DNA of 64,000 nt from Gammaproteobacteria bacterium. GTDB taxonomy: Bacteria > Pseudomonadota > Gammaproteobacteria > Steroidobacterales > Steroidobacteraceae. The translations under genes and the position numbers were made by a program. The notes beneath the pieces were generated by a model. That model did no database searches and was not told where the DNA came from. It worked only from the letters and a program-made list of their open reading frames with translations. How positions within the stretch are numbered: the stretch's first letter is position 1; every line of letters begins with the position of its first letter. Positions 12,637-43,786 of this stretch are shown piece after piece. The DNA is taken from contig JAJFKF010000020.1 of the NCBI GenBank assembly GCA_021773365.1, forward strand, positions 1 through 64,000, written 5' to 3'.

Positions 12637-12644
12637 AGGGACTC

Positions 12645-19876: not shown

Positions 19877-19886
19877 GGCGACTCCT

Positions 19887-23625: not shown

Positions 23626-23682
23626 TCCGCACCCCTATCGTTGTGGTCCAGCTATCGAACCACCGGGGCGGATCCACAGACA

Positions 23683-23719: not shown

Positions 23720-23749
23720 AACGGCAGCTCAGGGTCAACGCCCGGGAGA

Positions 23750-24272: not shown

Positions 24273-24310
24273 CGACAATCCGCGCTTACCGTCAGACAAC
24301 ACCGGATCGT

Positions 24311-27300
24311 TCATTGCAGAATCGGAGCACGCTTTCGCTCACGAGGGAGAATGGCCGTCGGAGTCATCTTTCTCGTAAAGAACATGGCGTCAAAGTGGGA
24401 CGGCCAGAACTCCCGCATCGGGCCATGCCCCAACGGCCGGGAGGAGATCGGTTCGGTACGCAACCAGTGGTTAACCGGCAATGAGCGCAGATCGAGAAAG
24501 GCATTCTCGAAGCCCGCTTCACGCAGCATGCCTTCCAGCGCCTCCCGAGGCTGCGACTCGACAGGCCAGGACCGACCGCCGACCGTGCCATATGTTCCGC
24601 TGTCGGCAACAAAGCCGACGACATAGTAGTCTGAACCTAACGCCTCACGGACAAACGTCCCCATAGTGGGGCTGGCACGTCCGGCGACGGAGCTGTGCTG
24701 CAGACTAGCAGAGTTGTCCATTAAATGGGACGAAGCGGCCCAAAGTATGAACTTGTGCCCGGCGTAGCGGCGATTGACCAGATACAGCAGATTCTCAGCC
24801 AGTCGCTCATCACGAACATTAGCCTGGGCATCCCGACCGCGACCGTCGACCAGCCGCATCCGCCGTTCTTGCACCACTCGGTTCGCGACCGTACGCAGCC
24901 AGAACTCGACCTCCTGCGCGCCGTGAACAGCGGTGAAGTCTACTCTGTGGTCTTCGATGGTCTCGTAGATGTCCAGCAAGGCATCACGCACCGGACGCCA
25001 CAGCGCTTCCGGAGCGTTAGCGTATTCACGATCGTGATGACTGCGTAGAATGAAGTCAGTGGCCAATGCCCGTGTACGCTTATCAATCAGCGCCGGGTCG
25101 ACTTTATCGACAAACGAGAATAAGCGCTCGGCATACTCCTGCCGCGCGCCCGAGAGCAGGCAATCGAACCCCGCCATCGTCAACGGCTGCTGTGTAGCGT
25201 AAGTTTTGCGCGCGTATTTGTATACATCCAGGGTCTCGGAATTCCAGCCCCAGCCAAACGGCCCACTGGTATTTGCTGCCAGCGGCTCGATGGGCACATC
25301 GGTCTCCAACAACTCCCCGGCCACGCGACACGGGAACATACCAAGCTCCCACGCCAGCACATCGAAGCCCATTTCCTGATGCAGAAACTTCACCAAACGA
25401 GCCTTCGCCCGGAACGTGGCTCCGTCCTGATGCGTCTGTTCACCCAAAGCCACCACCCGTGCGCTGCCAATGAGTGCCTTGATTGGTGCCAAGTCGGTGA
25501 AATCTTCATCTCGTAGATCAAGCGAGCGCACTGTCACGGCCCTGTCGCGCAATTCCTCTATCCGGCCGCTGAGTACGCCCTGGGGCTGGATAGATGGTGC
25601 TTGCACCGCGGCCTTACCGGGCGAGGTGTGTACGCCCAACCTCCCCTGCTTTTCCTTGGCGGGGCCCGAATTAGCATCGGTCCACCAGCCGGGAGCAGGC
25701 TTGCCCCTGAGATAATGATCAAAAAACTGCTGCTTACGAAAAGCGTAGTCGAGTCTGTTGGCCGGCTTCTTGAGTACGTGATTTTCACCCTCATACTGAA
25801 GCATGACCACGGGTTTGCGCAATCTGCGCAGCGCATTGTAGTACTCCAGGCCCTGCGTGAAATCAACAGCACCGTCCTTGTCGTTGTTCACCAGCAGCAA
25901 CGGCGTGGTAATTTTATCGACATAGGCAACCGGGGAATTGCGCACAAAGGAGTCCCAGTACTTCCAATATCCGCCGGAGAAACGTCCCTGCCCGCTCTCG
26001 AAATGAGTCATGTTACTGCGGCCCGTATTCTTGTATATCAATCCATACATGCTCACTAAATCCGTAAGCGGAGCGCCCGCGACCGCAGCTTTGAACAGGT
26101 CGGTTTGTGTAACTAGAAATGCGGTTTGGTATCCACCCCAGGAATATCCATACAAACCGACTTTACTCGCCTCAACCACGCCGGTGGCGATCGCTGCACG
26201 CAATGCAGGAAGCACGCACCACATCGCGGACATCCCCGGATCATTCACGACGTAATTGATATCGGGCATCAGCACCGCATATCCGTTGCCGGTATATAGA
26301 GCCGTATCCAGCTTCCAGTCCAGATCCGGATGATTAAAGTGGTGGAATCGATCTGAAAGGCGCTCGTAGATATAGACGATAGTTGGATAGCTCTGCCCCG
26401 GTTGATAGCCAGCCGGCAGATACAAGCTTGCCTGCAATCGCTTGCCTGCAAACCCTGCGCGCGGTGAGTCGCTATGAAAGTCAATCAAACGCGCACCAGC
26501 CGACCAGGCATAGTTCGTCAACTGCTCCCGACCATCACTAAGTCGACGCGGGTTAGCCAGTGTTGCGTCCGCGGCATACAAATCAGGATAAACAGTTGAC
26601 GTCGATCGTTGATATATCAGCGTCGGCGCATTCCTGGCCTTAAGCAATAGGTCATAGGCGGCATCTTCCCACACCAGCACCTCCAACTCAGGCCGGTGTG
26701 GTATTAGACGTGCAACGCCACCTTTCTTGGTCCACTCGCCGAACATGTATAGATATTGAGGCTTGTCCAGGTCAATGCCGTTGTCGTCCTTATAAACCGG
26801 CAGGAAACTGTATCTGATCTGTTGCCGGCGGCCGTTCCCAGTCAGGTTGATTGCGCTCTCACCGGCCGCAGAAACCTTCCAGAAATCCCATTGATCTCTG
26901 AGCACTACGCTGCGGCTGTCGGCCGTCCACCCCAGAGGCAGTGCAGGTGGATCGCTTATATTTCGATCATTCTCGACATCTACAAAAGAAACGTCGATTC
27001 CGTTCGTAATGTTTACCGACGTTCCGGATGGCGCATCGAATACGTAGAAGTTGCGATCAGCGTAGTAGAGAACTTTATTGCCGTCAGGAGACTGCGCGTA
27101 TATCCACCGTAGGCGCTTACCCGCAAGTTTGCGCATTCCGGTTTCCATATTAACCATATAGACGTCCTGGTAGCGCTGCCCCTGCAGAGAGTCAGTCAAA
27201 TCGTAGGGTGTCTCGTCCAGACCTAACGCCCAGTGCCCCTTGCGAGGCGGCTTCACCTCACCCAGATGCTCGTCCGCAAGACGAATAAACTTCCTGTCTG

Positions 27301-28441
27301 CTACCCGCCACCCGGCCAGATAGCTGGCTTTTCTGTCCACCTTTTCACGATAGCGCTGCTCGCTTTGTAGACGAATGTCGTTCCAATGCCAAAGCACCAA
27401 ATCGACCTTATCTTCTTCATCGTTGCTTTTATCCCGTGTCTTTCTCTTGGTAATACCGAACAGCAACGTCTTGTGGTTGCTTGTCCATTGAGGAGTGCGA
27501 TCAGAACTGATTACCATTCCCTCTGGAAAGAGGACATCTTCTGCGGGATCATATCGCACACTGCGCAAGGGCTTTCGAGTAACATCAGAAATCCCAACCA
27601 ATGAGTAACGCGGCGAGTCATCACTCTCGTCTTCAACCCCTCTCAAGAATACAAGTGCACTACCCTCCTCGCTCCACGACAATCGCTCGTAGCGTGATCT
27701 GCTACTATCAAGTGTCGTCACCACACCTGTCTTGAGATTGCGTACCTGTACCGCGTTGCCAACCTGCTTGTCTGCAGCAATTGCCCAGGCTAACGAATGC
27801 CCCGCCTTGTCGAAAGCAAACTCGGCGACATTGCTGATGGTTACATCACGTCCGGAGTCCAAATCTCGCACAACAAGAGCGCCGCCCGTAGGCGCCGATT
27901 CACCCTCTCTGCTTTCATCATCAGCGGGAGTTGGCGCCCCATAGTGATGCAAAGCAACCGCTGCATCATGAAGCTCTGAGAAGGCAAACCTCTTGACTTC
28001 TGGATACTCTGTTTTTTCTCCGGTTGCAAGCTCGAGCAGAGTAACGCCTTTCCTTATTTCCTGTTTGTGCTTTTTCAACTCACGCGCCTTCTCGTAAGGC
28101 GGAAACGTCTCAAACGCAAGCCATGCGCCGCTTGCGGAGAACTGCGTCATGCCAGATCCAGCGTCACCGGCAGGATAGCGATACTCTCTGTTTCCATCGG
28201 TCGCGCGCACAACAACTTCACTGTTCCCCACCAAGGGGCTGAAGTAGTAGACCACCCACTTACCGTCTGGAGAAATCAGTGGATTGACAATTTTCTTCCA
28301 GCCCAAAGCATCTTCCGGCGTCAGCGCACGTACCGTACCGTCCCCGGCAGGCGCCGCTGCCGCACAACACGGCATCATGTAAAGCATCATACTTACAGCC
28401 GCCACAAGAAAAGCAGCGGCCCGGCCACCGGATATCTTCAT
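24311..28441 (-). CDS. S9 peptidase fused to an erythromycin-esterase domain
   Basis: A 1376-aa exported protein. After a signal peptide (AAAFLVAAVSMMLYMMPCCA) comes a beta-propeller, then the S9 (prolyl-oligopeptidase) hydrolase with nucleophile GLYGYSWGGYQTAF (about residue 764), Asp in LLVNNDKDGAVDF (about 852) and His in YEGENHVLKK (about 885). A linker rich in Ala, Gly and Pro leads to an erythromycin-esterase domain (about 950-1376) with the signature RVVALGEQTHQDGATFRAKA (about 999) and FDVLAWELGMF. Each part alone matches a family; the fusion is unusual. The ATG at 28441 has an AAGGG site 8 bases upstream. It follows the cluster A receptor gene in the same direction and probably degrades what that receptor imports. 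Confidence 0.88.
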   Translation of the reverse strand: MKISGGRAAAFLVAAVSMMLYMMPCCAAAAPAGDGTVRALTPEDALGWKKIVNPLISPDGKWVVYYFSPLVGNSEVVVRATDGNREYRYPAGDAGSGMTQFSASGAWLAFETFPPYEKARELKKHKQEIRKGVTLLELATGEKTEYPEVKRFAFSELHDAAVALHHYGAPTPADDESREGESAPTGGALVVRDLDSGRDVTISNVAEFAFDKAGHSLAWAIAADKQVGNAVQVRNLKTGVVTTLDSSRSRYERLSWSEEGSALVFLRGVEDESDDSPRYSLVGISDVTRKPLRSVRYDPAEDVLFPEGMVISSDRTPQWTSNHKTLLFGITKRKTRDKSNDEEDKVDLVLWHWNDIRLQSEQRYREKVDRKASYLAGWRVADRKFIRLADEHLGEVKPPRKGHWALGLDETPYDLTDSLQGQRYQDVYMVNMETGMRKLAGKRLRWIYAQSPDGNKVLYYADRNFYVFDAPSGTSVNITNGIDVSFVDVENDRNISDPPALPLGWTADSRSVVLRDQWDFWKVSAAGESAINLTGNGRRQQIRYSFLPVYKDDNGIDLDKPQYLYMFGEWTKKGGVARLIPHRPELEVLVWEDAAYDLLLKARNAPTLIYQRSTSTVYPDLYAADATLANPRRLSDGREQLTNYAWSAGARLIDFHSDSPRAGFAGKRLQASLYLPAGYQPGQSYPTIVYIYERLSDRFHHFNHPDLDWKLDTALYTGNGYAVLMPDINYVVNDPGMSAMWCVLPALRAAIATGVVEASKVGLYGYSWGGYQTAFLVTQTDLFKAAVAGAPLTDLVSMYGLIYKNTGRSNMTHFESGQGRFSGGYWKYWDSFVRNSPVAYVDKITTPLLLVNNDKDGAVDFTQGLEYYNALRRLRKPVVMLQYEGENHVLKKPANRLDYAFRKQQFFDHYLRGKPAPGWWTDANSGPAKEKQGRLGVHTSPGKAAVQAPSIQPQGVLSGRIEELRDRAVTVRSLDLRDEDFTDLAPIKALIGSARVVALGEQTHQDGATFRAKARLVKFLHQEMGFDVLAWELGMFPCRVAGELLETDVPIEPLAANTSGPFGWGWNSETLDVYKYARKTYATQQPLTMAGFDCLLSGARQEYAERLFSFVDKVDPALIDKRTRALATDFILRSHHDREYANAPEALWRPVRDALLDIYETIEDHRVDFTAVHGAQEVEFWLRTVANRVVQERRMRLVDGRGRDAQANVRDERLAENLLYLVNRRYAGHKFILWAASSHLMDNSASLQHSSVAGRASPTMGTFVREALGSDYYVVGFVADSGTYGTVGGRSWPVESQPREALEGMLREAGFENAFLDLRSLPVNHWLRTEPISSRPLGHGPMREFWPSHFDAMFFTRKMTPTAILPRERKRAPILQ

Positions 28442-28594: not shown

Positions 28595-31500
28595 TTAGTG
28601 GAAGGATTTGCGTACCGAAATTGTGTAGCGGCGAAGCCGTGGATCGCCATAGTAGCTGTATCCAGGACTGATCGTGTCGGTGGACGCGATAATGGGCGGA
28701 ACCTTGTCGAAGACGTTCTGAACGCCAATTGAGATTTCGCTATTGGCGAAGACGCTCCCCAGTAATCCCCTTAGCCCATCGACTCGGTATGAGGCATACA
28801 TATCGTGATACATCTGGCTCGGCAACATCTCAGAGCCCTGAATTGATATTTGTCGACTTACCGTTGCCGCGGTAGCTGTGGGTGTATATACACGATAGCC
28901 ATCATAGTACTGGGCATTCCAGTTTAGCGACAGCGGCCCCCGATCCCAGGTCAAACCCATATTGCCGCGGAACTTCAACGGCCCGCCCGTATATCCAACG
29001 TACTCGATCGACGGACTATCCGGCAATAACAGGTTCTTGTAGTGCGGCTGATAAGTCGCCACTGCATACCAACGCAACGCCCCAATACGGGTGTCCATCA
29101 AGTAATCAGCTTGCACATCGTACGCCTCTACTTTTGTCCTCGCTATATTCGTTGCACTGGCATCTATCGTGAGAATAGGCCCAGCCCACTCGGTCGCATC
29201 GTCCGGCAATTTTTGACCACGAATAATCCGATCCGGATATCTGCTCTCATTGTCCAGCAGGAACTGGATACTCGGGTTGTAGATTTCATCGTCCTTGTCG
29301 ATCTGCACGTAGTCGATCGAAACTCTCAGCCCCGGAATAAACCGCGGCGTAAGAATCATACCCAACGACAAGCTCTCGGAACGCTCGGGAGAAAGATCAG
29401 GATTCCCGCCTCGCAACAGTTCAAGCGGAGGCTGGAGCGGCGCACCGGAGATATCACTATCACCACGCCGTGGGTCCGGGACGCCAAGCCCAAACTGGAA
29501 ATACGAGGCTGACTTCCCAAGCTGGGAAACACTCGGCGGAAGAAATCCAGTACCGAAACTTGCACGAAGTGCGACGCTTTCGCTCGGCGCATATCGCAAA
29601 GCAATGGTGTAGTCGGTCGATTGAACGTCATTCATCTTAATATTTGCACCCGGCAAATCGACGGCATCTTTCGACGCCACCAACAGATCGAAGTTTGGAT
29701 CACCCGCTGACATATATAGATCGTGTCGCGCTGAGACCTGTAGCTCTAAGTCGCGGACCATGGACCATCTGGTGTTGCGCGAAGAGATCAGCGGTATTCT
29801 CCCCTCCAGATAGTACGAATCAACGTCTCCGGAACGAGGATGGTTGTACCGTATGTCTTGCTGCCCGCGTACGAAAAAATTAGGCGTTTGCGAGAAAGCC
29901 GCGGCAATTCTCTCCTCTCGCCGAGAAATAATGGAGGACAGCGTCAAAGCACCCGCCGGCAGGTCGACGATCGGTCCTGACAAACGCAAAGTGATATTCC
30001 GCAACTTGTTCTCGTATGGCCCGTTAAAGGTATTTGGTGACGGCAACACGTAGGGAGCGAAGTCTGCAATGGCGTCGGTATAAGTCGTATAGTCCAGCAG
30101 CGCATCCAGCGGTGGTCCGCTTGTAAGCGTCGGATCGCCAAGAGCCTCGCTGGGATTGCAACCGCAATACATAGCAAGCAGCCAGGAATAATCAGTTGCA
30201 AAATAGGTGCCGGTGAGGTCCGAGCGCGACCGGCTCCAACTGTAATCAAGTTCACCGGTCCAGTTATTCGGCAGACGGGCGATCACACCTGCAATAGCGC
30301 GATCGGTAGTGGAAGTCTGTTGGATTGAGTCGTTGAATCCGGGTATTGGAAATCTCACGTAAATGGTCGAGGTAAAAGGGTTGGCCGGTGAGATAGGATG
30401 AACGGTGGTGCCCGAGCGGGCGCTGGAAGTATATGAACGCCCTTCATTTCCCAGGCGAGAAATATCAACAAAAGCTTCAATATTTGAGCTGAATTCCCGG
30501 CGTACGCTCAGTGTATATGACTCCATGGAAGGCGAAGCCACCAGGCCGCGCTGACCGCCCTCAACACTATCAAGCGGATAGTCCAGGTTATATTGCCCGG
30601 CATTGACTATAAGTGCCGATACTCCATCCGCGGCAACGCCCCCGTACCCGATTGGAACATGTGTGTTTACCGCGCCGAGGGACATGCCGCCATACTGCGA
30701 CTTTAATCTCAACGGCTGCTGCACGCCACCTATGAAACTATAACTGACGATATTCGTCGCGCTGCCCAGCGGCGGGAAAGTCGCCGTATAGACGGTGGTT
30801 GGGTCGTTGGCCACGGCAAGTCCAAAAGCGCGCTGCGAGAAATCACGATCCGCAATCACCATTCGGTTGGCGCTTGAATGAGTTGCCGTGAACAATATCT
30901 GCGTGCGCCCACCCTCCAGGCTGAAACCGGCAGTCGCGTCCAAACGCAAATTGGCGGCATCAGTGTCGAATGTATTCACATAAGTAGCATTGCCTTCGAT
31001 GCCCCGATAATCACGGCGCAGTACGATGTTGATCACCCCACCAGTAGCACTGCCGCCGTAAATGCCGCCGGCTGTGGCAGGCAAGACTTCGACGCGCTCA
31101 ATGGCTGCCAGCGGAATTCCGTTGATATCGGGCTGCAGCGGGAACCCGCTGTTGGTAATGCCCGGCATTCGCCGTCCGTCAACCAGGATGAGTGTCTCGT
31201 CGGCACCTAGTCCTCGCAGATTAATGCTTGAGGCCGTGCTTGCGTTGCCCGTTGCCGGCCCTTGACCATTGTTAGTTGTGGATGCATTCATAGGTAGGCG
31301 TGTCTTCAGGAACTCCTCAAGATTCACCGCCTGGGAACGCTCGATGTCCTTGCTATCAAATATTACATAAGGCTGCGGAGCATCCTCGGAACGTTTGATG
31401 TCGGTATTGCCCGAACGCTTACCCTTGACCAGCATCTCCGGTATGCCCTTTGAGCTGTCATCGTCACTCGCCTCACCCCTGGTGTTGTGCTCGGCGCTAG

Positions 31501-31966
31501 TTTCTGTGGTTGTCTCGGCAGGCAAGTCAGCACGAGTAAGTTTCAATCTTCTCATAGTTGCCGCGCTCCGATCACCTGCCGGAGCTACTGTCGCGGTGAC
31601 CTGAAGCCCACCTTCGTCATCAAAATCAGCCTTAAGACCAGTGCCTTTAAGCAGCAACTGGAGGGCCCTTCTCTTGTTGAATTCACCCTTAACAGAGGTC
31701 GACACTATGCCGTCCAGCGCCTCATAGGGAATCAGAAATTCCATTTTCGCCTGCCGAGCATAGACCTCCAGTGCGTTTGCAACCGGCTGTGCGGGAATAT
31801 CAAAACGCAGGGTTTGCTCGGGCACGATCCGTTCTGCATGACCAGCCGGCATGAACAGCATCCCGGAAACCAGCAGCAGAAGGTTCGCAAATATGAGTAC
31901 CAATCGAAGCGACAGCTGCGGCCTGATGCGCGTGTGTGCGGTATTTATCCCCGTCTGCATTGTCAT
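28595..31966 (-). CDS. TonB-dependent receptor with STN domain, cluster A
   Basis: A 1123-aa outer-membrane receptor. The signal peptide is followed by an STN signalling domain (LRFDIPAQPVANALEVYARQ to about residue 115), a spacer, a TonB-box-like KGIPEMLVKG, the plug (VNLEEFLKTRLPMN, SINLRGLGADETLILVDGRR, VEVLPATAGGIYGGSATGGV) and a long beta-barrel ending DPRRYTISVRK-like at FH. The STN domain should contact the FecR protein encoded 89 bases upstream. GGAGG lies 7 bases before the ATG, and a cluster-specific promoter element lies at 32011-32040. The ligand is unknown; the downstream peptidase-esterase suggests a peptide or ester-containing natural product. Confidence 0.92.
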   Translation of the reverse strand: MTMQTGINTAHTRIRPQLSLRLVLIFANLLLLVSGMLFMPAGHAERIVPEQTLRFDIPAQPVANALEVYARQAKMEFLIPYEALDGIVSTSVKGEFNKRRALQLLLKGTGLKADFDDEGGLQVTATVAPAGDRSAATMRRLKLTRADLPAETTTETSAEHNTRGEASDDDSSKGIPEMLVKGKRSGNTDIKRSEDAPQPYVIFDSKDIERSQAVNLEEFLKTRLPMNASTTNNGQGPATGNASTASSINLRGLGADETLILVDGRRMPGITNSGFPLQPDINGIPLAAIERVEVLPATAGGIYGGSATGGVINIVLRRDYRGIEGNATYVNTFDTDAANLRLDATAGFSLEGGRTQILFTATHSSANRMVIADRDFSQRAFGLAVANDPTTVYTATFPPLGSATNIVSYSFIGGVQQPLRLKSQYGGMSLGAVNTHVPIGYGGVAADGVSALIVNAGQYNLDYPLDSVEGGQRGLVASPSMESYTLSVRREFSSNIEAFVDISRLGNEGRSYTSSARSGTTVHPISPANPFTSTIYVRFPIPGFNDSIQQTSTTDRAIAGVIARLPNNWTGELDYSWSRSRSDLTGTYFATDYSWLLAMYCGCNPSEALGDPTLTSGPPLDALLDYTTYTDAIADFAPYVLPSPNTFNGPYENKLRNITLRLSGPIVDLPAGALTLSSIISRREERIAAAFSQTPNFFVRGQQDIRYNHPRSGDVDSYYLEGRIPLISSRNTRWSMVRDLELQVSARHDLYMSAGDPNFDLLVASKDAVDLPGANIKMNDVQSTDYTIALRYAPSESVALRASFGTGFLPPSVSQLGKSASYFQFGLGVPDPRRGDSDISGAPLQPPLELLRGGNPDLSPERSESLSLGMILTPRFIPGLRVSIDYVQIDKDDEIYNPSIQFLLDNESRYPDRIIRGQKLPDDATEWAGPILTIDASATNIARTKVEAYDVQADYLMDTRIGALRWYAVATYQPHYKNLLLPDSPSIEYVGYTGGPLKFRGNMGLTWDRGPLSLNWNAQYYDGYRVYTPTATAATVSRQISIQGSEMLPSQMYHDMYASYRVDGLRGLLGSVFANSEISIGVQNVFDKVPPIIASTDTISPGYSYYGDPRLRRYTISVRKSFH

Positions 31967-32055: not shown

Positions 32056-33039
32056 CTACTCAGCGGGCTCAGGACGGGCCGTGCGGCTGACGACTACAAT
32101 CTTCCCCGCATCACGACGTACCCAAACCGGGAAATTCTCTTCCAGACGCGCGAGAAACGCCGGCATATCGGTGGCGCGAAAGTAGCCACTGACGCGGATG
32201 TTAGCGGCAGCCTCGTCCACAACAGCAAAATGCACCTGATTGTATCGGCCAAGCTCGGCGAGCACCTCACGCAGGGTTTCACCACGGAAACTTACCATTC
32301 CGTCATGCCATGCGAGCCTGCGTTCCAACTCCTCAGGCGCTATGGGGAAGACTTTATTCAGCTGCGATGATGCCGCAGATTGTCCCGCACGCACCATAAC
32401 CGGGCTACCAGCACCGGACGAGGAGCGAAAGCTCACCGCCCCCTCCAGCACCAGGACATCTACTCCGCTATTGTCAATGCGCACGGTGAATTCCGTACCT
32501 ACCGCACGGATAAAATGACCGCCGGCCTCTACGATAAATGGCCGCTGCGGCTGATGCGCCACTTTAAAGCGCGCCTCGCCGCGCTCGAGCTGCACCAGTC
32601 GTTCATTCTTTTTAAAATCAACGAACACACGGGAATTGGTATTCAGCTCCAACGTTGACGCGTCCGCCAACGCAATGCGGCGCTGCTCGCCGACGGCAGT
32701 CTGAATGGATCCTGTACCCGTATGACGGACCACAAGCGCGGAACTGATAAAAATTGCCGCCATGCCTGCAGCCACGACCGCTGCCACAACCCACCGGCGG
32801 CGGCGGCGGCTAGCAGAAGTATTTCCGGTCTTAACTGTGACGCCATTGAGATGGCTCAATAATTCCAGCCGCCGCCAGGTTCCCGCCAGTTGAGCGTAAA
32901 TTTCACGTCGCTGGGGATCCGCTGCCGCCCAGTCCTCGAACTGCCTGCGGTCATGGTCTGTTACAGATTCAGATTGCAACCGCACCAGCCATTCGCTGGC
33001 CTCATTGCGCATAGTTCTCAACGGTACAACGGAACTCAT
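32056..33039 (-). CDS. FecR-family sigma regulator, cluster A
   Basis: A 327-aa membrane regulator. It has an N-terminal FecR domain (NEASEWLVRLQSESVTDHDR), a membrane helix at about residues 90-110 (WVVAAVVAAGMAAIFISSAL), the periplasmic FecR core (VGEQRRIALADASTLELNTN, RGEARFKVAHQPQRPFIVEA, IRAVGTEFTVRI) and a C-terminal STN-like domain (GETLREVLAELGRYNQVHFA). The ATG at 33039 overlaps the sigma stop as ATGA, which I prefer to the upstream ATG at 33072. Confidence 0.9.
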   Translation of the reverse strand: MSSVVPLRTMRNEASEWLVRLQSESVTDHDRRQFEDWAAADPQRREIYAQLAGTWRRLELLSHLNGVTVKTGNTSASRRRRRWVVAAVVAAGMAAIFISSALVVRHTGTGSIQTAVGEQRRIALADASTLELNTNSRVFVDFKKNERLVQLERGEARFKVAHQPQRPFIVEAGGHFIRAVGTEFTVRIDNSGVDVLVLEGAVSFRSSSGAGSPVMVRAGQSAASSQLNKVFPIAPEELERRLAWHDGMVSFRGETLREVLAELGRYNQVHFAVVDEAAANIRVSGYFRATDMPAFLARLEENFPVWVRRDAGKIVVVSRTARPEPAE

Positions 33040-33650
33040 CGTCCGTCTCCCTGCTTGCATTTTCCACAACATCCCTGGTTCTTACACTGCACAAAGAACT
33101 CGTGGCACGCCTCCACTCCCCGCGCCAGATGGCTCTCTACGCTCTTTAGCGAGATTCCAGATTTGTCTGCAATCTCCGCGTAGGACAAATCGCCCTTCAT
33201 GCGCATGAGAACAATTTCCCTGCGCCGCGCGGGAAGGCTTGCAATAGCCGCTCGCGCACATGCCAGATCCTGGATCTGCGACAACATCTCATCCATCGGC
33301 TGCACATCGCCATCCGGAAGTCCAACGGCGACATCCTTGGCAAGAACGGTTGCCGTCACCCTGCGGTGGCGGATATGACTTATTGCCAGATTACGTGCCG
33401 TCTGGAAAAGAAAACCGCTCGGCGAGCTGATTCGCGCTGCATCTCCTGCATAGACCCTCAGGAACGCCTCCTGAGCAAGCTCCTCTGCATCGTCGGCGCT
33501 AACAAATCGAGTCAGATAGCGCTTTAGCGCGGGAAACTGCCTGGCAAAGAATCGATCGAAACGACCATCGTTCGGTAACTGCGCATCCTGCGGCGTACCT
33601 TCTTGCAGGCCCGTATCGGGACAATCAACAGGTTCAAGCGATATGCGCAT
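33036..33650 (-). CDS. FecI-type ECF sigma factor, cluster A
   Basis: A 204-aa ECF sigma factor. Region 2 is seen in FDRFFARQFPALKRYLTRFV and AEELAQEAFLRVYAGDAARI, followed by GFLFQTARNLAISHIRHRRV; region 4 is LPARRREIVLMRMKGDLSYA then EIADKSGISLKSVESHLARG. It carries a Cys-rich tail (CKNQGCCGKCK) not seen in the other sigma factors here. Unlike clusters B to E, I find no copy of the cluster's promoter element before this gene, so it may be expressed from an ordinary promoter and act on the receptor operon and the esterase operon. Confidence 0.9.
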   Translation of the reverse strand: MRISLEPVDCPDTGLQEGTPQDAQLPNDGRFDRFFARQFPALKRYLTRFVSADDAEELAQEAFLRVYAGDAARISSPSGFLFQTARNLAISHIRHRRVTATVLAKDVAVGLPDGDVQPMDEMLSQIQDLACARAAIASLPARRREIVLMRMKGDLSYAEIADKSGISLKSVESHLARGVEACHEFFVQCKNQGCCGKCKQGDGR

Positions 33651-33812: not shown

Positions 33813-33842
33813 CTGCAGGGTTTTATGCTGCTCGAGCGTCAT
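33813..33842 (+). promoter_or_regulatory. Cluster A ECF promoter candidate (esterase operon)
   Basis: CTGCAGGGTTTT, 8 bases and CGAGCGTCAT repeat the element at 32011-32040 on the other strand. Its -10-like box overlaps an in-frame ATG at 33841, so that ATG cannot be the start of a transcript made here. The downstream ATG at 33913 is the better start for the esterase gene. Confidence 0.75.
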
Positions 33843-33912
33843 GATTAAAGATGGGCTGCTCAATTGCACCCTTACCGCTGGAGTCCTGCGGACACGTGGA
33901 TCCCCGTGCGCC

Positions 33913-35271
33913 ATGAATCCGAACAGTCTTCGCAGCATATTGTTACCCACCCTGCTTGCCACCTGCTGGACGACCGCAACCTGGGACCGTATGCCGCGGC
34001 AAACCACCGGATCAACCGATATCCGCGCCCGCCTGGCGTCCTTGCAAGCGCAAGCCATTGAGATACGCTCCATTGATCCCGCAGATGACAACTTCTCAGA
34101 TCTCATGCCGCTTGCAGTAAAGATTGGCAGCGCACGAATCGTTCAGCTCGGCGAATCGACGCATGGGGACGGCGCCACATTCATGGCTAAGACGCGGCTG
34201 ATCAAGTTTCTTCATCAAGTGATGGGATTTGACGTAGTTGCATGGGAGTCAAATATCTACGAATGCGCCCTAGCAGATTCGGCGCTGCGTAACACACGCT
34301 CCGATGCATCAGAGGCTGCCAGCATCGGGGTCTATGGAGTATGGTCATCCGCGCACGAATTGCGCTCGCTCTTTGAATATATCCGCGCTTCAAAGACAGG
34401 GGCACGGCCGATTAATCTGATCGGCATCGACTGCCAGAGCACGCCTCAACTGGCCGACGCCCTGTTTGCCTACTTCGAACGCACCCTCCCAGGCACAGCA
34501 GATAGCAACGATCGAGCGTCACTGCGAGATTTTCTTGAGGCGGCCTTCCAGGGCAATTACGCACCATCCCCTAAGCAGCGCAAATCCATCCGCGCGATAC
34601 TCAAACGCCTCATGGTTGCTGCCAGCGACGAGCACCCGCGCCGCGACAAGCACGAGGCTCAGTTGATAGTACGTACACTGCGTAATGTGCTCGAATTCGA
34701 ACAGATGTTTTCGGCGCAAGCCGCAATCCCGCAAACAGCGAATCCACCCAAGGAGGATATCCGCGATGTTGCCATGGGAAGGAATCTTGCCTGGCTTGCC
34801 AATAAGTACTACCCCGACCGGAAAATCATCGTCTGGGCAGCAAACTTCCACGTTAATGAAGACCCAGGCGCTCTTGAGCCAGTGAACTGGACCAGAACGT
34901 CAATGAGCGGCTACGTAACTGAAGGAAAGCAAGCAGCGCAGCTACTAGGCGAACAACTATATACCATCGGTTTCACCGCCTATAGCGGCAGTCATGCACG
35001 TATTAACCGTCGGTCATATCAGCCGATTCACATCCCCGTTCCAGCTGCTGGAACTTTCGAGGATGTATGCCATCAGACCGGCCGTCGATTCCTGTTCGTC
35101 GACTTGAAGAACTTGCCTCAGGGACACTGGGTACGCGAACCACAACTCATAGCCCATCCGATCGGATACGGGCCGATGGCAGGAGAGTGGTCAAAGGCTT
35201 TCGACGCGCTTTTCTTCATAGACGAAATGACACCCGCAACACCGCTTCAACGGACTTTTTCCGCCCAATAA
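33913..35271 (+). CDS. Erythromycin-esterase family hydrolase, cluster A
   Basis: A 452-aa exported hydrolase of the erythromycin-esterase superfamily (PF05139). The N-terminus MNPNSLRSILLPTLLATCW looks like a signal peptide. The catalytic block reads RIVQLGESTHGDGATFMAKT (about residue 80) followed by FDVVAWESNIYE; in Ere enzymes the His of this GE-x-x-H motif is the general base. Later matches are IDCQSTPQLADALFAYFE and KIIVWAANFHVNED. It is homologous to the C-terminal domain of the fused peptidase on the other side of the sigma gene. Such enzymes open macrolide lactones, but many homologues do not act on erythromycin, so the substrate is open. Confidence 0.88.
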   Translation: MNPNSLRSILLPTLLATCWTTATWDRMPRQTTGSTDIRARLASLQAQAIEIRSIDPADDNFSDLMPLAVKIGSARIVQLGESTHGDGATFMAKTRLIKFLHQVMGFDVVAWESNIYECALADSALRNTRSDASEAASIGVYGVWSSAHELRSLFEYIRASKTGARPINLIGIDCQSTPQLADALFAYFERTLPGTADSNDRASLRDFLEAAFQGNYAPSPKQRKSIRAILKRLMVAASDEHPRRDKHEAQLIVRTLRNVLEFEQMFSAQAAIPQTANPPKEDIRDVAMGRNLAWLANKYYPDRKIIVWAANFHVNEDPGALEPVNWTRTSMSGYVTEGKQAAQLLGEQLYTIGFTAYSGSHARINRRSYQPIHIPVPAAGTFEDVCHQTGRRFLFVDLKNLPQGHWVREPQLIAHPIGYGPMAGEWSKAFDALFFIDEMTPATPLQRTFSAQ

Positions 35272-35282: not shown

Positions 35283-37694
35283 ATGACACATCGGAGTGCT
35301 TACAAAGTCCGGGGCCGGCCAGGAGCAGCTGTCTGGACAGTTGTGCGAGTTGTTACTCGGCCATACAAGATAGCAGCACTTTCGATAATCAATGCACTAG
35401 TCGTCGCGCCATGTATGGCAGCACAGCCCGCTTATGCACCCGCGCAGGTAACTACTTCGGCATATCGATCGGCAGAGCGCTTCCTTGGCGCTAGCAAACT
35501 GGTACTGCACGGAAGTGTCCTCCCGACCTGGATTGACAAAGACGACTTCTGGTACAAAGTGGTCACCAGGCGCGGAAATGAATACATCTTGATCGACTCC
35601 TCGCGGCATACACGGCATCCTGCATTCAATCACGAACGCCTTGCTGCTGCGCTGTCAGCCGCCACCGCAGAGCAGTACAGCGCGTACGAATTGCCTATTT
35701 CATGGTTCAAGTATAACGAGGACAGAAGTGCGATTTCTTTCAAAGAGGCGAATAATAACAAGCGCGCATGGACCTGCGATCTTGGAAACTACGCATGCAC
35801 CATGGAATCCGCGAGTCCTGCGGCCGAGAGCAATATCTCACAGACAAGAAGACCATCGACCGTGCGCTCGCCCAACGGACAACGCGCCGTATTTATCCGT
35901 GACGACAATCTCTGGCTGCTGGATGTGGCCACCCAGCAAGAACGGCAGCTGACAATGGATGGCACACAAGACTATGGTTATGCTACCAACAATTCCGGCT
36001 GGACAAAAAGCGACAATCCCGTGGTCGCCTGGTCGCCGGATTCCAGGAAAATCGCGACATTCAAGCACGACGCACGCCAGGTCGGCGAGATGTATCTAGT
36101 GGAAACAAAAGTTGGTCACCCCATACTACATCGATGGAAGTACCCGCTTCCCGGAGATGCGCATATCTTCATGATTGAACGGGTGATCATCAATGCAGAT
36201 TCGGGGAAGGTTACCAGACTCGACATTCCACCTGATCCGCATCGCTCCACCACCTGTGACCACGTTGTGTGCGGCGGTAAGTTTGCCGATACACAGTGGA
36301 GTTCCGATAGCAGCCAACTGGCATTCGTATCAATGTCCCGTGACTACCAGCGTGCACAACTTCGAGTTGCGAATGCGCAAACCGGAAAGGTGCGCAATAT
36401 TCTTGAGGAACGCGTGGACACATTCTTTGAGTCAGGAAACAGAGCTGAGAACTGGCGCTTTCTCCCGGAAAGCAATCTGGTGATCTGGTTTTCAGAACGC
36501 AGCGGCTGGGGACACCTGTACTCGCATGACCTCAGGACCGGCGTATTGCAACAGGCAATTACTCATGGAAGCTGGGATGTATTGAGAATCCTGCATGTTG
36601 ATATCAGAAACCGGACCATCTATTTCGAGGGCTCAGGCCGCGAGAAGGACCGCAATCCTTACTTCAGGCACCTGTATAAAGTGAGCTTTGACGGAGGTAT
36701 TGTCACAGCGCTGACACCTGAAGATGCAGATCACACCATCTATCTATCCCCATCCGGAAAGTACTTTGTGGATACATTTTCCAGACCGGATGTTCCGCCG
36801 GTTTCACTGCTGCGGCAAATCAACGGTAAACCGCTACTTGAACTGGAGCGCGCCGATATTTCGCAGCTTGAAGCCCTTGGCTGGAGGCCGCCGATGCCGG
36901 TCACAGTCAAGGCGCACGACGGCACTACAGATTTGTACGGACTGGTATTCAAACCGAAGGCTCTCAATCCGGATCTGAAGTACCCAATCATTAATAAAAT
37001 CTACCCGGGACCGCAGACTGGCAGCGTTGGCCGGCACAACTTCTCTCCCCACGGCGCCCTGCAAGCACTAGCCGAGCTTGGCTTCGTGGTGGTAGCGCTT
37101 GACGGCATGGGCACGCCGCAGCGATCGAAAGCATTTCATTCGGCCTACTACGGCAACATGGGCGAGAACACGTTACCGGACCAGATCGCAGGAATGCAGC
37201 AGCTTGCGCAACGCTATCGGTGGATTGACATTGAGCGGGCGGGAATTTACGGCCATTCAGGCGGCGGATATGCAGCTGCTGCCGCAATGTTCCGCTATCC
37301 TGATTTCTTCAAAGTCGGTATCGCTCAGGCTGGCAATCACGACAACCGTAACTACGAAGCTGCCTGGGGAGAGAAATGGCACGGACTACTGACGAACAAT
37401 TCTGATGGCGGCACTAATTATGATAACCAGGCCAACCAGCTTTCAGCCGGCAATCTGAAAGGCAAGCTTTTGCTGGTACATGGATTGATGGATTCCAATG
37501 TTCCACCTTATGGCACGTTTCTGGTAGTCGATGCACTGATCAAGGCAAATAGGGATTTTGACCTTCTGCTGTTCCCTAACAGCACGCACAGACTGGATGG
37601 AAGTTATTTGACCCGTCGTCGCTGGGACTATTTTGTTCGCTATCTGCTGGGGGCCGAGCCGCCGCAACACTACCAGATTGACATCGATCCCTAG
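35283..37694 (+). CDS. DPP-IV-like S9 family peptidase, cluster A
   Basis: An 803-aa exported serine peptidase. A long basic N-terminus with a hydrophobic stretch (IAALSIINALVVAPCMAAQP) gives export. The DPP-IV N-terminal propeller spans to about residue 540 (VAWSPDSRKIATFKHDARQV, VEEGSGREKDRNPYFRHLY-type text), and the catalytic domain has GIYGHSGGGYAAAAAMFRYP (Ser), GKLLLVHGLMDSNVPPYGT (Asp) and LLLFPNSTHRLDGSY (His). The nucleophile motif GHSGGG differs from the GWSYGG usual in DPP-IV. It starts 12 bases after the esterase stop, so the two form an operon. Its stop codon overlaps that of the convergent thioredoxin-like gene. Confidence 0.9.
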   Translation: MTHRSAYKVRGRPGAAVWTVVRVVTRPYKIAALSIINALVVAPCMAAQPAYAPAQVTTSAYRSAERFLGASKLVLHGSVLPTWIDKDDFWYKVVTRRGNEYILIDSSRHTRHPAFNHERLAAALSAATAEQYSAYELPISWFKYNEDRSAISFKEANNNKRAWTCDLGNYACTMESASPAAESNISQTRRPSTVRSPNGQRAVFIRDDNLWLLDVATQQERQLTMDGTQDYGYATNNSGWTKSDNPVVAWSPDSRKIATFKHDARQVGEMYLVETKVGHPILHRWKYPLPGDAHIFMIERVIINADSGKVTRLDIPPDPHRSTTCDHVVCGGKFADTQWSSDSSQLAFVSMSRDYQRAQLRVANAQTGKVRNILEERVDTFFESGNRAENWRFLPESNLVIWFSERSGWGHLYSHDLRTGVLQQAITHGSWDVLRILHVDIRNRTIYFEGSGREKDRNPYFRHLYKVSFDGGIVTALTPEDADHTIYLSPSGKYFVDTFSRPDVPPVSLLRQINGKPLLELERADISQLEALGWRPPMPVTVKAHDGTTDLYGLVFKPKALNPDLKYPIINKIYPGPQTGSVGRHNFSPHGALQALAELGFVVVALDGMGTPQRSKAFHSAYYGNMGENTLPDQIAGMQQLAQRYRWIDIERAGIYGHSGGGYAAAAAMFRYPDFFKVGIAQAGNHDNRNYEAAWGEKWHGLLTNNSDGGTNYDNQANQLSAGNLKGKLLLVHGLMDSNVPPYGTFLVVDALIKANRDFDLLLFPNSTHRLDGSYLTRRRWDYFVRYLLGAEPPQHYQIDIDP

Positions 37695-38776
37695 AGGTCT
37701 GATCGTGAGCTGGGCGACCCACGCTTGCCCGGCTCCTGGCTCGTTCGCTGCTGCTCGATAGCAGGATAGTCAGGGAGATCCTGGGCTTCCAGCTGCGCGA
37801 CCAGCCCGCGCACGAAATCCTTGGTATCCGCATCAAGCTCGCCCACCCGCGCGCGTACCACGCCATCGGCATCGAGCACGAAGTAGGTCGGGTACCCGCT
37901 GATGCCCCATTGCTCGACCAGGTCCGAGTTCATGCCGACGTATAGATTCACCCACGGCATGGGCTGACTTTTCATGTGTTCGACCACATCCTGCGGCTTC
38001 CTGTCCATACTGAAGGAAACCACCTCAAGCGGCTTGCCTGACATTTCCTCGTAGAACTTCGCCAGCTTCGGCAGACCAGCCACGCAGGGCGGACACCAGG
38101 TCGCCCAGAAATCCACAATGACGATCTTGCCACGCTGGCGGCTCAGGCTATCCTCTCCGCCGCCGATACGCGGTCGGCCGACATCCTGCAGACGATCGCC
38201 CACGGAGTAGTCCATCGAATTGAGCGTCAAACCCACCCACTTAATCAGTGATTGGTCATCGTTCAAATCGCGGCGCAGCCGTTCGGAAAACTGGCGAAAC
38301 TCCGTCTCGATCTGCTGGCGATGCGCAACGCTCGTATGATGGTCCGTGTGCATCATGTAATACGTGCTGATCATCGATCGCGCCAGACGGTTGCGTACCG
38401 CAGGACTCTGACTAGCCTCGTAGAATCTGCGCATGTATTCAGTGTTGGCCGGATAGTCCATCTGAAAGGTGTACAGGTATGCGGTATTCGCCGCCGATTC
38501 ACGATCGGCATGGTAATTCAACAGCAATTCTCCCAGCCGATCCAGACGCCGCTGTTTTTCTCGAGCGGACCCCTGCTCGCCGCTGCGATGTGCTTCCTGC
38601 ACAAGCTCGGTGATCTGCCGGTTGATCATTTCGAACGCCGCATCGCTGCGCGGTTCGGACTCAATGGCGGAAATCTCCTCCGCCGCAGGATCGGCAGCGC
38701 TCCCGGGCACGGCGCAGGCAGGCAAGCAGGCGCAGAGCATTGTCAGTACCGCCGTCGGGCGTACATTCATCAACAT
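37691..38776 (-). CDS. TlpA-like thioredoxin-fold lipoprotein, cluster B
   Basis: A 361-aa protein with signal and lipobox (VLTMLCACLPACAVPGSAAD; Cys in LPAC). A helical domain of about 190 residues precedes a C-terminal TlpA/ResA-type thioredoxin domain with IVIVDFWATWCPPCVAGLPK (redox CPPC) and the cis-Pro segment WGISGYPTYFVLDADG. It follows the cluster B receptor by 17 bases on the same strand and should be co-expressed. A periplasmic disulfide reductase next to a receptor suggests a ligand or receptor loops with disulfides. Confidence 0.9.
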   Translation of the reverse strand: MLMNVRPTAVLTMLCACLPACAVPGSAADPAAEEISAIESEPRSDAAFEMINRQITELVQEAHRSGEQGSAREKQRRLDRLGELLLNYHADRESAANTAYLYTFQMDYPANTEYMRRFYEASQSPAVRNRLARSMISTYYMMHTDHHTSVAHRQQIETEFRQFSERLRRDLNDDQSLIKWVGLTLNSMDYSVGDRLQDVGRPRIGGGEDSLSRQRGKIVIVDFWATWCPPCVAGLPKLAKFYEEMSGKPLEVVSFSMDRKPQDVVEHMKSQPMPWVNLYVGMNSDLVEQWGISGYPTYFVLDADGVVRARVGELDADTKDFVRGLVAQLEAQDLPDYPAIEQQRTSQEPGKRGSPSSRSDL

Positions 38777-38793
38777 TACGGCGACCTCGCGGA

Positions 38794-41700
38794 TCAGAAA
38801 TTTTTACGCAGCGTCAGGCTGTAGCGACGCAGGCGCGGATCGGCGTAAACACTGTAACCACCGAAGGGACTGCTGGTAGCAATGATCGGCGGAAGGGTAT
38901 CGAAGATATTCTGGATACCGACCAGAATCTCCGCATCCCGCAGCAGGCCGCCGAACTGCGGCTGCTCACCGAAGCGGTAGCGCAGGTGCAGGTCATGATA
39001 AATCTGCCGCGGAATGGTATCCGACCCCTGGCCAGCAGAACTCAGCGTAGCAAACTCCGGAGTGGCATCGGCCTGATAGACCAGATAGTCATCGTAATAC
39101 TGAAAACTCCAGCTTGCGGCCCACGATCCACGGTCCCAGGTCAGCCCACCGTTACCGCGCCACTCGAGCACACCGCCGTTAAAGCCCACTGAATCGACCG
39201 GTTGTGCGTCCGGGAGAATCTGCCGTCGCAGATGCGGCTGCCAGGTGAACAGCGCGAACGCCCTGAAGCTACCATAACCATCCGTGCGCCAGGTGTAGTC
39301 CAGCTGGGTGTCGTAGGCTTCCAGGAAAGTGTTCGACAGATTGGCCAGCCGCAAGTCCATGCTGGAGATTGCTCCGCCCGTGAAACCCATGTCGATGTCA
39401 TCCTGGGTCAACTGTTCGCGTTCGATTCGATCAGACAGTATGCCTTCGTTATTGAGAATATCCTGGCTTGACAGCCCGAATATTTCGTTAGTCTTCTCGA
39501 TACGCGTGTAGTCCACCGACAGGCGCAGGCCCGACAGCGCCACTGGCGTATAAATCAATCCAGCCGACCAGCTACGGGACTCTTCTGGCTGCAGGGCGGT
39601 GTTGCCGCCTTCATACGTCGGCACAAAGGCTACGAAGAACTGATTGCCGCGCTTCGGATCGTTGCCGAAAATTACGCCATTGAGATCAAAGCGCTCGAAC
39701 ACCTGGTTGAGCGACGGCGGCAGAAATCCGGTGCCGTAGCTCGCACGCAATGTCAGCTGCTCCACCGGCTGATAACGAAATCCCACGGTAAAGTCGGTGG
39801 AGTTGACTTTGTTTATGTTGCGCCCGAATTCAGGCAAGGGGTCATCAGGCGAGAACACTATCGTGCCGAAGCCTACATCAGCGCTATCGGTCTTGTAGTC
39901 GTCGCGTCGCGCGGAAATCTGCAGCTGCAGATCGCGCACGTAGGGACGGGCGTTGACCTGTGAAACCAGCGGAATTGCCGCTTCCACGTAGACACTGCCC
40001 ACCGACTGCGAACGCTCGGGGTTATAAATAACCGGGTATTGCACTGCGCCGTTATTATCGAGACCTCGCAGATAACCCTCCTCGGAAACTTCATCGCGAT
40101 ATTGCGCTGCTGCCGTCAAGCTTAATGCGCCGGCCGGCAATCGCATCAGCGGCCCACCGATACGCAGTGATGTCTGTTCCAACTGGGTATGAAAAGGCCC
40201 GGAAATGAAATTCGGAACCAACCCCAGATAACCCGCGCCAGCGTAGTCAAACGGAAAGGCGTTGGGATCGCGGGTGAAGTCAATCTGGCCGGTGAACAGC
40301 GCCGTGCGACCAGCGTTGTTTAGCGCACTACCGGAGGCATAGTAGAAGCGTGAGCGGCTCCAGCTGTGCTCACCCTGCAGCGTCCAATCGCGCGGCAGGC
40401 GTACGATCAAACCACCCGCGGCCTGCTGTGTTTCACTTTCCGAGGGATAATCAAAATCCAGTTCGGGCGTCGGAAAGGTCACCTGCACCCGGTTCTCGAA
40501 GGGGTTCACCGGATTGCCGGGATTCAGCACGATCGAGTTGTCAGCAAAGGATACGGCGCTGCTGCCGTTGTTCTCAAAGTGTGACAGGTCCAGGAACGCC
40601 TCAACCCGACCGCCGAATTCCCGGCGCAAGTTCGCCGAGGCGGACTGAGTCTGAGGGTTATTGATTAAACTCCGCCGCGCACCCCCGGCATCCTGCGGCA
40701 AGTCCAGGTTGTAGCTGCCGGCGTTGGCGGCCAGCCCCGCACCGCCATCGGAACTCGCGCCGGCATAGCCGTACGAAGCGGAAGTGATGCCCGAACCGAT
40801 TGATTCGCCGCCAACGAGGGTCAAAGCACGGCTGGTCATACTCGCGTTGAAACCCAACGAACGGAAATTCGGCGTGGCTCCGATAGGCGTAGAAAAAATC
40901 GAGTCCTCGGAAAATCTTGTTGGGTCATTACGCTTTAGCAAAGCCCGTCCGCGCGCGGCGAAATCCCGTTCACCCGTCAACAGTCGATTGGAATCGGCAT
41001 AGCTGGCGGAGAGCATGATGTTTGTTTTTCCACCCTCAAGCGCAAACCCAAAACTGCCCTCGATACGCCGCTGCGCGGCATCGGAATCGAAGGTATTGTC
41101 ATAGTTAACCGATAACTCACCCCCGGTGTAGTCACGCCGCAGAACGATATTGACGACACCACCGGTGGCGCCGCCACCGTAAATTCCCGAGGCGGTGGAC
41201 GGCAGCACTTCGATACGCTCAATGGCATTCAGCGGAATGCCATTAATGTCGGGCTGGTTGAGCTCGTTGGTGCTGAAGGAATCACTGATTCTCGGCATGC
41301 GTCGTCCATTGACCAGCACCAATGTCTGGTTGGTGCCCAAGCCGCGCAGGTTGATTGAGCTTTGGCTGCCGAAACGCAGTCCAACATACTGACTGTTGGT
41401 CTCCCCCACTGTATTCATCGGCAGGCGGGTCTTAAGGAAGTCCTCGAGGCTGCTCGCCATGGAACGATCGATCTCGGCGCGCTCGAACACCACGTAGGGC
41501 TGCGGATCGTCTTCGGTGCGTTTGATATCGGTGTTACCCAGCCGAGAGTCCTTGACCAGAATCTCGGGGATGGACATTTTCTCCGCCGTCAACTCCTCCG
41601 GATCAATGGTTGCAACAGCGGCAGGGGTTTCGCGCGTGCTTTTGGGTGAATCGCTCGCTTGCGCCCGCGCCAAGCGCATGCTCGCAGGATCGATCGTGGT

Positions 41701-42042
41701 AGTGCGGCTCGCCGTCGGTCTACTTCTCTCATTGCGCTGGCGGATGCCATAGGTTTTATCGTTCACCACGTAGGCTTCGAGACCGCTTTCGTGCAGCAGC
41801 AACGCCAGCGCCGCTGTGGGCTCGTATTTTCCGGTCAGCGCCGGCGCGGATTTACCCTCGGTCAAGTCAGACTGAACGGCCAGCTGAATGCCGGACTGAC
41901 GGGCAAATTCACGCAGCGCCGTAGACAGTGGCTGCGCGCGGATCTCGAGATTGATCGGTCCGGCCACAGCACCGGTGGCCCCCGCGCCGCAGGTGGCGAC
42001 AATCAGAACTGCGCAGCTGAATAGAAAACGATGGCCTTTCAT
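38794..42042 (-). CDS. TonB-dependent receptor with STN domain, cluster B
   Basis: A 1082-aa receptor. The signal peptide (FLFSCAVLIVATCGAGATGA) is followed by an STN domain (NLEIRAQPLSTALREFARQS to about residue 110), a TonB-box-like SIPEILVKDSRLGNTDIKRT, the plug (SLEDFLKTRLPMN, SINLRGLGTNQTLVLVNGRR, STASGIYGGGATGGVVNIVL) and a barrel ending SLTLRKNF. The ATG at 42042 is chosen over an upstream one because a promoter element lies at 42082-42108, and the upstream start at 42117 would precede it. It is closely related to the receptors of clusters A and C. Confidence 0.92.
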   Translation of the reverse strand: MKGHRFLFSCAVLIVATCGAGATGAVAGPINLEIRAQPLSTALREFARQSGIQLAVQSDLTEGKSAPALTGKYEPTAALALLLHESGLEAYVVNDKTYGIRQRNERSRPTASRTTTIDPASMRLARAQASDSPKSTRETPAAVATIDPEELTAEKMSIPEILVKDSRLGNTDIKRTEDDPQPYVVFERAEIDRSMASSLEDFLKTRLPMNTVGETNSQYVGLRFGSQSSINLRGLGTNQTLVLVNGRRMPRISDSFSTNELNQPDINGIPLNAIERIEVLPSTASGIYGGGATGGVVNIVLRRDYTGGELSVNYDNTFDSDAAQRRIEGSFGFALEGGKTNIMLSASYADSNRLLTGERDFAARGRALLKRNDPTRFSEDSIFSTPIGATPNFRSLGFNASMTSRALTLVGGESIGSGITSASYGYAGASSDGGAGLAANAGSYNLDLPQDAGGARRSLINNPQTQSASANLRREFGGRVEAFLDLSHFENNGSSAVSFADNSIVLNPGNPVNPFENRVQVTFPTPELDFDYPSESETQQAAGGLIVRLPRDWTLQGEHSWSRSRFYYASGSALNNAGRTALFTGQIDFTRDPNAFPFDYAGAGYLGLVPNFISGPFHTQLEQTSLRIGGPLMRLPAGALSLTAAAQYRDEVSEEGYLRGLDNNGAVQYPVIYNPERSQSVGSVYVEAAIPLVSQVNARPYVRDLQLQISARRDDYKTDSADVGFGTIVFSPDDPLPEFGRNINKVNSTDFTVGFRYQPVEQLTLRASYGTGFLPPSLNQVFERFDLNGVIFGNDPKRGNQFFVAFVPTYEGGNTALQPEESRSWSAGLIYTPVALSGLRLSVDYTRIEKTNEIFGLSSQDILNNEGILSDRIEREQLTQDDIDMGFTGGAISSMDLRLANLSNTFLEAYDTQLDYTWRTDGYGSFRAFALFTWQPHLRRQILPDAQPVDSVGFNGGVLEWRGNGGLTWDRGSWAASWSFQYYDDYLVYQADATPEFATLSSAGQGSDTIPRQIYHDLHLRYRFGEQPQFGGLLRDAEILVGIQNIFDTLPPIIATSSPFGGYSVYADPRLRRYSLTLRKNF

Positions 42043-42081
42043 GTGGTCCCCCTGCTGGTACGACTCGGTCTCATGGGTACT

Positions 42082-42108
42082 GACCTGCGCACCGCGGAGG
42101 GTGGCCCC
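42082..42108 (-). promoter_or_regulatory. Cluster B ECF promoter candidate (receptor)
   Basis: On the minus strand GGGGCCACC, 12 bases and CAGGTC lie about 40 bases before the receptor ATG. The same boxes with the same 12-base spacing precede the cluster B sigma gene at 43795-43821. Confidence 0.7.
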
Positions 42109-42113
42109 CTCTA

Positions 42114-43193: not shown

Positions 43194-43195
43194 GG

Positions 43196-43786
43196 TTAAA
43201 TCACATCCGAAAGCGATTCGCGCATCAGCGCATAGCCGCGCGCCACGGCGCGCTTGACACTGCGACGGGTGGTACCAAGCCGCTCGGCAATCTGCTCGTA
43301 GGTCAGATCCTCCTGCGCCTGCAGCGCCAGCGCGGCCCGCGCCAGCGGCGGCAGCTGCGCCAGCGCGCTGCTCACCTGGCGACCGCGCGACTCCCGGTCG
43401 GCAAGCTGTTCCGGCCCGGGCTGGGCGGCGGGCTCGTATTCCTGGTGGGCATCGAGGCCGGTCCCTTCCAGCGGCTGCCAGCGCTGCTGGCGCAGTCTGA
43501 AGTCGTGGGCCACATTTGCTGCAACGCGAAATAGATACGCCTGTGGGTTCTTGACCACCTCGGCGCGGTCGAAGCGCAGCAGCCGCAGGTAGACCTCCTG
43601 GCAGACGTCCTTGATATCGCTCTCCACGACGCGGCGTTTAGCGAGGAAACGCTGTAGATCGCCGGCATATTCGCGCGCCCAGCGGGCCAGGCCGGCGGTG
43701 GAGCCGCGGGACGTACTCCCCTTGGGTTCCTTCTGGAAAGAAGCTGTCCCCGGCTGGGATGCGGGGGTGTCGGTCATTTGGGCCAT
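43196..43786 (-). CDS. FecI-type ECF sigma factor, cluster B
   Basis: A 196-aa ECF sigma factor. Region 2 appears in RWAREYAGDLQRFLAKRRVV, IKDVCQEVYLRLLRFDRAEV and NPQAYLFRVAANVAHDFRLR, region 4 in LPPLARAALALQAQEDLTYE then QIAERLGTTRRSVKRAVARG. The ATG at 43786 is only 9 bases after the -10-like box of its own promoter, so the message is leaderless or translation starts at the next in-frame ATG (43777). Autoregulation is likely because the same element precedes the receptor. Confidence 0.9.
   Translation of the reverse strand: MAQMTDTPASQPGTASFQKEPKGSTSRGSTAGLARWAREYAGDLQRFLAKRRVVESDIKDVCQEVYLRLLRFDRAEVVKNPQAYLFRVAANVAHDFRLRQQRWQPLEGTGLDAHQEYEPAAQPGPEQLADRESRGRQVSSALAQLPPLARAALALQAQEDLTYEQIAERLGTTRRSVKRAVARGYALMRESLSDVI

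Follow-up and report, generated by a model that had tools for sequence, protein, structure and literature searches.

We analyzed a 64,000-nucleotide stretch (the window) of a draft genome from the gammaproteobacterial family Steroidobacteraceae (contig JAJFKF010000020.1 of assembly GCA_021773365.1, positions 1 to 64,000), which carries a gene joining a peptidase of family S9 to an erythromycin-esterase (Ere) domain at the end of a TonB-dependent receptor locus. The gene (24311..28441) lies on the minus strand, running from an ATG at 28441 to a stop codon at 24311, and its 1,376 codons contain no internal stop. A preliminary description of this DNA, which gave no strand, had proposed a single exported protein of 1,376 amino acids with both catalytic centers intact, and the sequence agrees on each point: the open reading frame (ORF) is uninterrupted, both Pfam domains score above their cut-offs, and residues 1-30 form an alanine-rich, hydrophobic segment that by eye resembles a signal peptide. 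GAAGGG stands 5-7 nt ahead of the ATG, and in-frame alternative starts lie upstream at ATG 28447 and TTG 28486.

Two enzyme domains in one reading frame

The S9 half (residues 1-940; 25622..28441, minus strand) comprises the putative signal peptide, a predicted beta-propeller and an alpha/beta-hydrolase domain. Peptidase_S9 (PF00326) matches residues 746-912 with 86 bits (cut-off 22.6), and the motifs GYSWGG (765-770), NNDKDG (852-857) and GENH (885-888) carry the predicted triad S767 (codon at 26141-26143), D856 (25874-25876) and H888 (25778-25780), unchanged in an alignment of eight full-length homologues. The N-terminal region is strand-rich, with S9-type matches in Foldseek. Score, triad and propeller together place this half in the peptidase S9 (prolyl oligopeptidase) family. 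Its structure model is of moderate quality (predicted local distance difference test, pLDDT, 72.8) and serves here as a guide to the overall fold only; its Foldseek matches are generic S9 carboxypeptidases, DPP-IV and acylaminoacyl peptidases, with lasso-peptide isopeptidases lower down. Two narrower assignments failed: dipeptidyl-peptidase Dpp5 (NCBIfam NF053518) scores 57 bits against a cut-off of 900, and the lasso isopeptidase AtxE2 (NF033523) 92.4 bits against 400, over residues 745-912 only.

The AtxE2 match nevertheless raises the possibility that the protein is a lasso-peptide isopeptidase coupled to an esterase and acts on a lasso peptide or graspetide, both ribosomally synthesized and post-translationally modified peptides. 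Among NCBIfam models, AtxE2 scores highest for the hydrolase core, and lasso isopeptidases are encoded in a receptor-linked context resembling that of the fusion. The score is, however, far under the cut-off, the nearest solved relatives of the model appear to be generic S9 carboxy- and acylaminoacyl peptidases and not AtxE2, and this S9 family, a broad group of exported peptidases, occurs widely in unfused form and is common as such in Bacteroidota and Acidobacteriota. No lasso A, B or C genes were found among the window ORFs scanned, a scan limited to this stretch and not aimed at short precursor genes. We consider this explanation very unlikely.

The second half (residues 941-1376; 24314..25621, minus strand) matches Erythro_esteras (PF05139) over residues 1021-1357 with 119 bits (cut-off 26.4). 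EreC relies on the catalytic residues E47, H50, E78, R261 and H289 (PMC7979712), and a profile of 28 Ere sequences aligned with Bcr135 and EreC equates these with E1001, H1004, E1032, R1210 and H1239 of the fusion; the motif GEQTHQDG spans residues 1000-1007. The EreC crystal is of an H289N mutant, whose Asn shares its alignment column with H1239. The first His of the AHNxH motif, outside the five named catalytic residues, is replaced by Ala in the fused Ere and in several others of the same genome. A confident model of this half (pLDDT 89.5, predicted template modeling score, pTM, 0.91) retrieves Bcr135 (template modeling score, TM, 0.74-0.84) and EreC (TM 0.74-0.79) in Foldseek, with 3b55, 2qgm and 6xcq among the matches. 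Score, predicted fold and aligned catalytic residues place this half in PF05139. The macrolide esterase EreB (NCBIfam NF000209) could be set aside at 37.8 bits against a cut-off of 750. "Erythromycin esterase" is simply what the family is called, and since enzymes of the TIKI/Ere fold include peptidases (PMC6254334), the domain need not be an esterase.

Alignments with stand-alone S9 and Ere proteins place the junction in a linker at residues ~930-960 (25562..25654, minus strand), which leads from the C-terminal helix of the peptidase to the mature N-terminus of the Ere domain; the S9 stop codon and the Ere signal peptide are both gone. A frameshift or assembly error at about 25600, which the preliminary description had singled out as the threat to its proposal, is unlikely, because the ORF and its codon-position composition are continuous across the junction, in one frame, and a search of the whole assembly returns the identical single ORF in the interior of a 143-kb contig. 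The assembly is a draft in 157 contigs and the fusion is carried by no second genome among those searched, which leaves some room for an artefact having joined two genes. Against this stand the unbroken frame of 1,376 codons, a junction that falls exactly between complete domains, and the lack of any near-identical S9 or Ere copy able to cause a mis-join, the nearest paralogues in the genome being 57% (S9) and ~40% (Ere) identical. We regard an artefact as highly improbable.

The receptor locus and its divergent neighbors

On the minus strand, the fusion gene is the last of a series that begins with an extracytoplasmic function (ECF) sigma factor (33036..33650) and continues with a FecR-type anti-sigma regulator (32056..33072; Pfam domains DUF4880, FecR and FecR_C) and a TonB-dependent receptor of 1,123 aa (28595..31966), which lies ~150 bp upstream of the fusion and has an N-terminus that looks STN-like by eye. 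This adjacency identifies an ECF/FecR/TonB-receptor surface-signaling locus. Divergent from the sigma factor, on the plus strand, is a stand-alone Ere gene (33841..35271, likely start 33913), whose product was proposed earlier to be homologous to the esterase half; it matches PF05139 with 131 bits and is 31% identical to it. A DPP-IV-type S9 peptidase gene (35283..37694, plus strand) starts 11 bp past the Ere stop codon. The same two enzyme classes are therefore fused on one side of a divergent promoter and encoded by adjacent genes on the other, which strengthens the case for a functional link between them.

A second module follows on the minus strand (37691..43786), encoding a thioredoxin-like protein (37691-38776), a TonB receptor with an STN domain called by Pfam (38794-42117), FecR (42114-43193) and an ECF sigma factor (43196-43786). 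No RNA families were found within 18000-45000. Just downstream of the fusion, the interval 23641-24314 is a degraded gene end with a Mutator-type (IS256-like) transposase remnant on the plus strand and, on the minus strand, a truncated WD40-like (PD40) propeller ORF; a short ORF overlaps the fusion stop codon (ATGA). Farther away, a metallo-beta-lactamase-fold protein lies beside another TonB receptor (57008-61117, minus strand), a different hydrolase in an equivalent slot. The window also contains a conjugative element with a relaxase, VirB/Trb type IV secretion genes and a coupling protein (6404-23331), adjoined by defense cargo on the plus strand (3089-6328): a TIR/CAP12-like effector (PDC-S35), a PDC-S32-like protein and an AbiP2-type reverse transcriptase.

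Ere genes across the genome and the origin of the fusion

More far-reaching than the fusion itself, and less expected, is the expansion of Ere genes beside TonB-receptor modules. The 3.97-Mb assembly, whose 16S gene is gammaproteobacterial by similarity (best identity ~86%, to plasmid-borne rRNA genes), contains 15 PF05139 matches, 24 S9 matches and at least 150 TonB plug matches, the last of these an unusually high number of outer-membrane importers. Most Ere matches sit in ECF-FecR-receptor-Ere modules (for example loci L048-L057). Thirteen of the 15 are within 5.7 kb of a plug match among those listed, and a fourteenth (contig 57, L056) directly abuts a 1187-aa receptor that is not among the plug matches listed. 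Ten of the 15 lie within 2.9 kb of a plug, a distance that covers 23% of positions under the null (p ~4e-4, a conservative bound, the null being generous given the receptor density); about half of the S9 matches are likewise near receptors. In the relatives search, 8 of 79 genomes, this one counted, had a strong Ere match, and the other seven carry one or two each. In other phyla, the 8-kb flanks inspected around Ere genes held none of these receptors.

This distribution bears on a reading in which the fusion serves detoxification and not nutrition: just as Ere enzymes disarm macrolides, it would inactivate antimicrobial lactones or depsipeptides that enter the periplasm. The fused domain retains every residue named as catalytic in EreC, a macrolide esterase, and an Ere homologue of unknown function in gammaproteobacterial graspetide loci has been suggested to act in resistance or modification (PMC8939145). 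That paper was the sole relevant result of our literature search on Ere with prolyl oligopeptidase or TonB. The fused Ere is nonetheless nearer to Bcr135 than to EreC and far under the EreB cut-off, PADLOC returned no match, and fifteen Ere copies tied to uptake modules speak for scavenging; detoxification seems to us unlikely, if less so than the lasso explanation.

We searched the fusion protein against 98 genomes of relatives, 369 of the class, 299 of the phylum and 16 Ere-bearing genomes, and further against 247 genomes of the acidobacterial phylum, 396 of the Bacteroidota phylum and 392 of the Planctomycetota phylum, some of them repeated across draws. Stand-alone homologues of each half were many, and no other S9-Ere fusion appeared in these ~1,800 genomes (some repeated) or in a plasmid collection. 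Because only the best two candidates per genome were scored in the large draws, the rarity of the fusion is likely but not proven. Two candidates were rejected: a protein from an acidobacterial-phylum genome (L098), whose C-terminal domains are PF06439 and not Ere, and a paralogue on contig 1 of the same genome as the fusion (63% identical over part of its length, open frame 1542), whose S9 domain stops 32 residues before the stop codon. A scan of genome contigs with short exact peptides returned Ere relatives only.

In a phylogenetic tree, the S9 half and the stand-alone contig-1 paralogue (57% identity) form a sister pair (support 100/100) that is nested within acidobacterial-phylum sequences (100/99); Bacteroidota S9 proteins, which were outside that tree, show 47-50% identity along part of the protein's length. 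The fused Ere has a weakly supported partner (81/78) in an Ere of its own genome (L050), whose gene directly follows an ECF-FecR-receptor set and overlaps its end. The simplest history may be the acquisition of an S9 gene belonging to an acidobacterial/Bacteroidota-type clade, followed by duplication and by fusion of one copy to one of the genome's many resident Ere genes. A stand-alone S9 paralogue of the fused half (L046:9103-12393) is flanked by pheA and an aminotransferase-aroA pair, in a set of aromatic and serine biosynthesis genes.

Proposed role and comparison with known systems

We propose that the fusion protein is a periplasmic processing enzyme of the ECF sigma/FecR/TonB-receptor uptake locus, a reading to which we give roughly even chances. 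The receptor would import a modified peptide (e.g., an acylated or cyclic peptide or a depsipeptide). Once this reached the periplasm, the S9 domain would use its serine triad to cut a peptide or isopeptide bond, and the Ere domain would use a water activated by His and Glu to hydrolyze an acyl bond such as an ester or lactone. The compound, opened or trimmed, could then become usable or harmless, and the fusion would hold the two steps together as a single unit of export and expression.

Several observations weigh against this proposal. With at least 150 receptors in 4 Mb, closeness to one of them is weak support for any single gene. Selection for the fusion is not demonstrated, since no second genome searched conserves it, and the branch of the fused S9 is longer than that of its stand-alone sister (0.57 vs 0.21), which is compatible with relaxed constraint. 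Lasso, graspetide and other biosynthetic genes were also absent among the window genes scanned.

The preliminary description read the fusion as implying either a single substrate that contains both bonds or their cleavage in sequence. The association of Ere with S9 was strengthened by the adjacent unfused pair, which makes it plausible that both bonds belong to one molecule; a shared substrate does not follow from the fusion alone, as an acidobacterial member of the S9 family carries an unrelated enzyme at its C-terminus. Two periplasmic hydrolases that belonged to a receptor locus and were encoded side by side could have been joined by the loss of a stop codon while still acting independently on different compounds. 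The L098 peptidase, with an unrelated pair of 3-keto-disaccharide hydrolase domains at the same end, suggests a C-terminus that tolerates passengers; S9 and Ere are joined in only one of the genomes searched, and several genomes that have both keep them unfused. The retention of both active sites and the unfused Ere and S9 pair next door argue the other way, and we rate such a chance fusion as possible but less probable than a role in processing.

The processing role, if correct, links the Ere family, known chiefly for conferring resistance to macrolides, with the import of nutrients or signals in a bacterium rich in receptors, and the ligand of the fused enzyme and its receptor should hold both cleavable bonds. 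Were the substrate shared, fusion and receptor would provide a handle for discovering a new class of peptide-ester compounds that bacteria import, and Ere enzymes outside resistance would gain a natural role. It is tempting to go further and suppose that this lineage extensively recruited Ere enzymes as dedicated periplasmic hydrolases of TonB-receptor surface-signaling loci, that the fusion really does process a single imported peptide-ester in two steps, and that the fifteen Ere loci each read a different ester-bearing ligand, a wider scenario that we advance tentatively and consider doubtful as a whole.

Stand-alone long S9 peptidases (~900-1000 aa) of Acidobacteriota (46-55% identity), Bacteroidota (best 47-50%) and Gammaproteobacteria (~30%) are homologous to the fusion over residues 20-925, with an invariant triad and a propeller, but end ~10-60 residues past the S9 domain, without Ere. 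Members of PF05139 (EreA/B/C/D, Bcr135, Bcr136) share the predicted fold (TM 0.74-0.84) and the equivalents of E47/H50/E78/R261/H289, whereas the domain described here is only ~15% identical to EreC in a structural alignment and is fused, with a putative export signal. The L098 protein (L098:5518-9621, open frame 1374) has a homologous S9 half (49%) extended at the equivalent point, though by two PF06439 domains unrelated to Ere. A plasmid locus of Bacteroides finegoldii (L080, NZ_OY725954.1) has the order ECF-FecR-SusC-SusD-DUF4843-PKD and an S9 homologue of the fused half, and differs in encoding three separate S9 peptidases, a SusD and no Ere. AtxE2-type lasso isopeptidases share the S9 fold and the receptor-linked periplasmic setting, but the S9 half of the fusion is ~200 residues longer, scores 92 bits against their cut-off of 400 and has no lasso genes among the window ORFs scanned. 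The preliminary description's candidate for a new bifunctional natural-product hydrolase holds as regards its architecture, seen nowhere else in the genomes searched; a natural product as its substrate is better put as a supposition. The protein combines two known families in an architecture that is new and unusual, and it does not represent a new kind of system.

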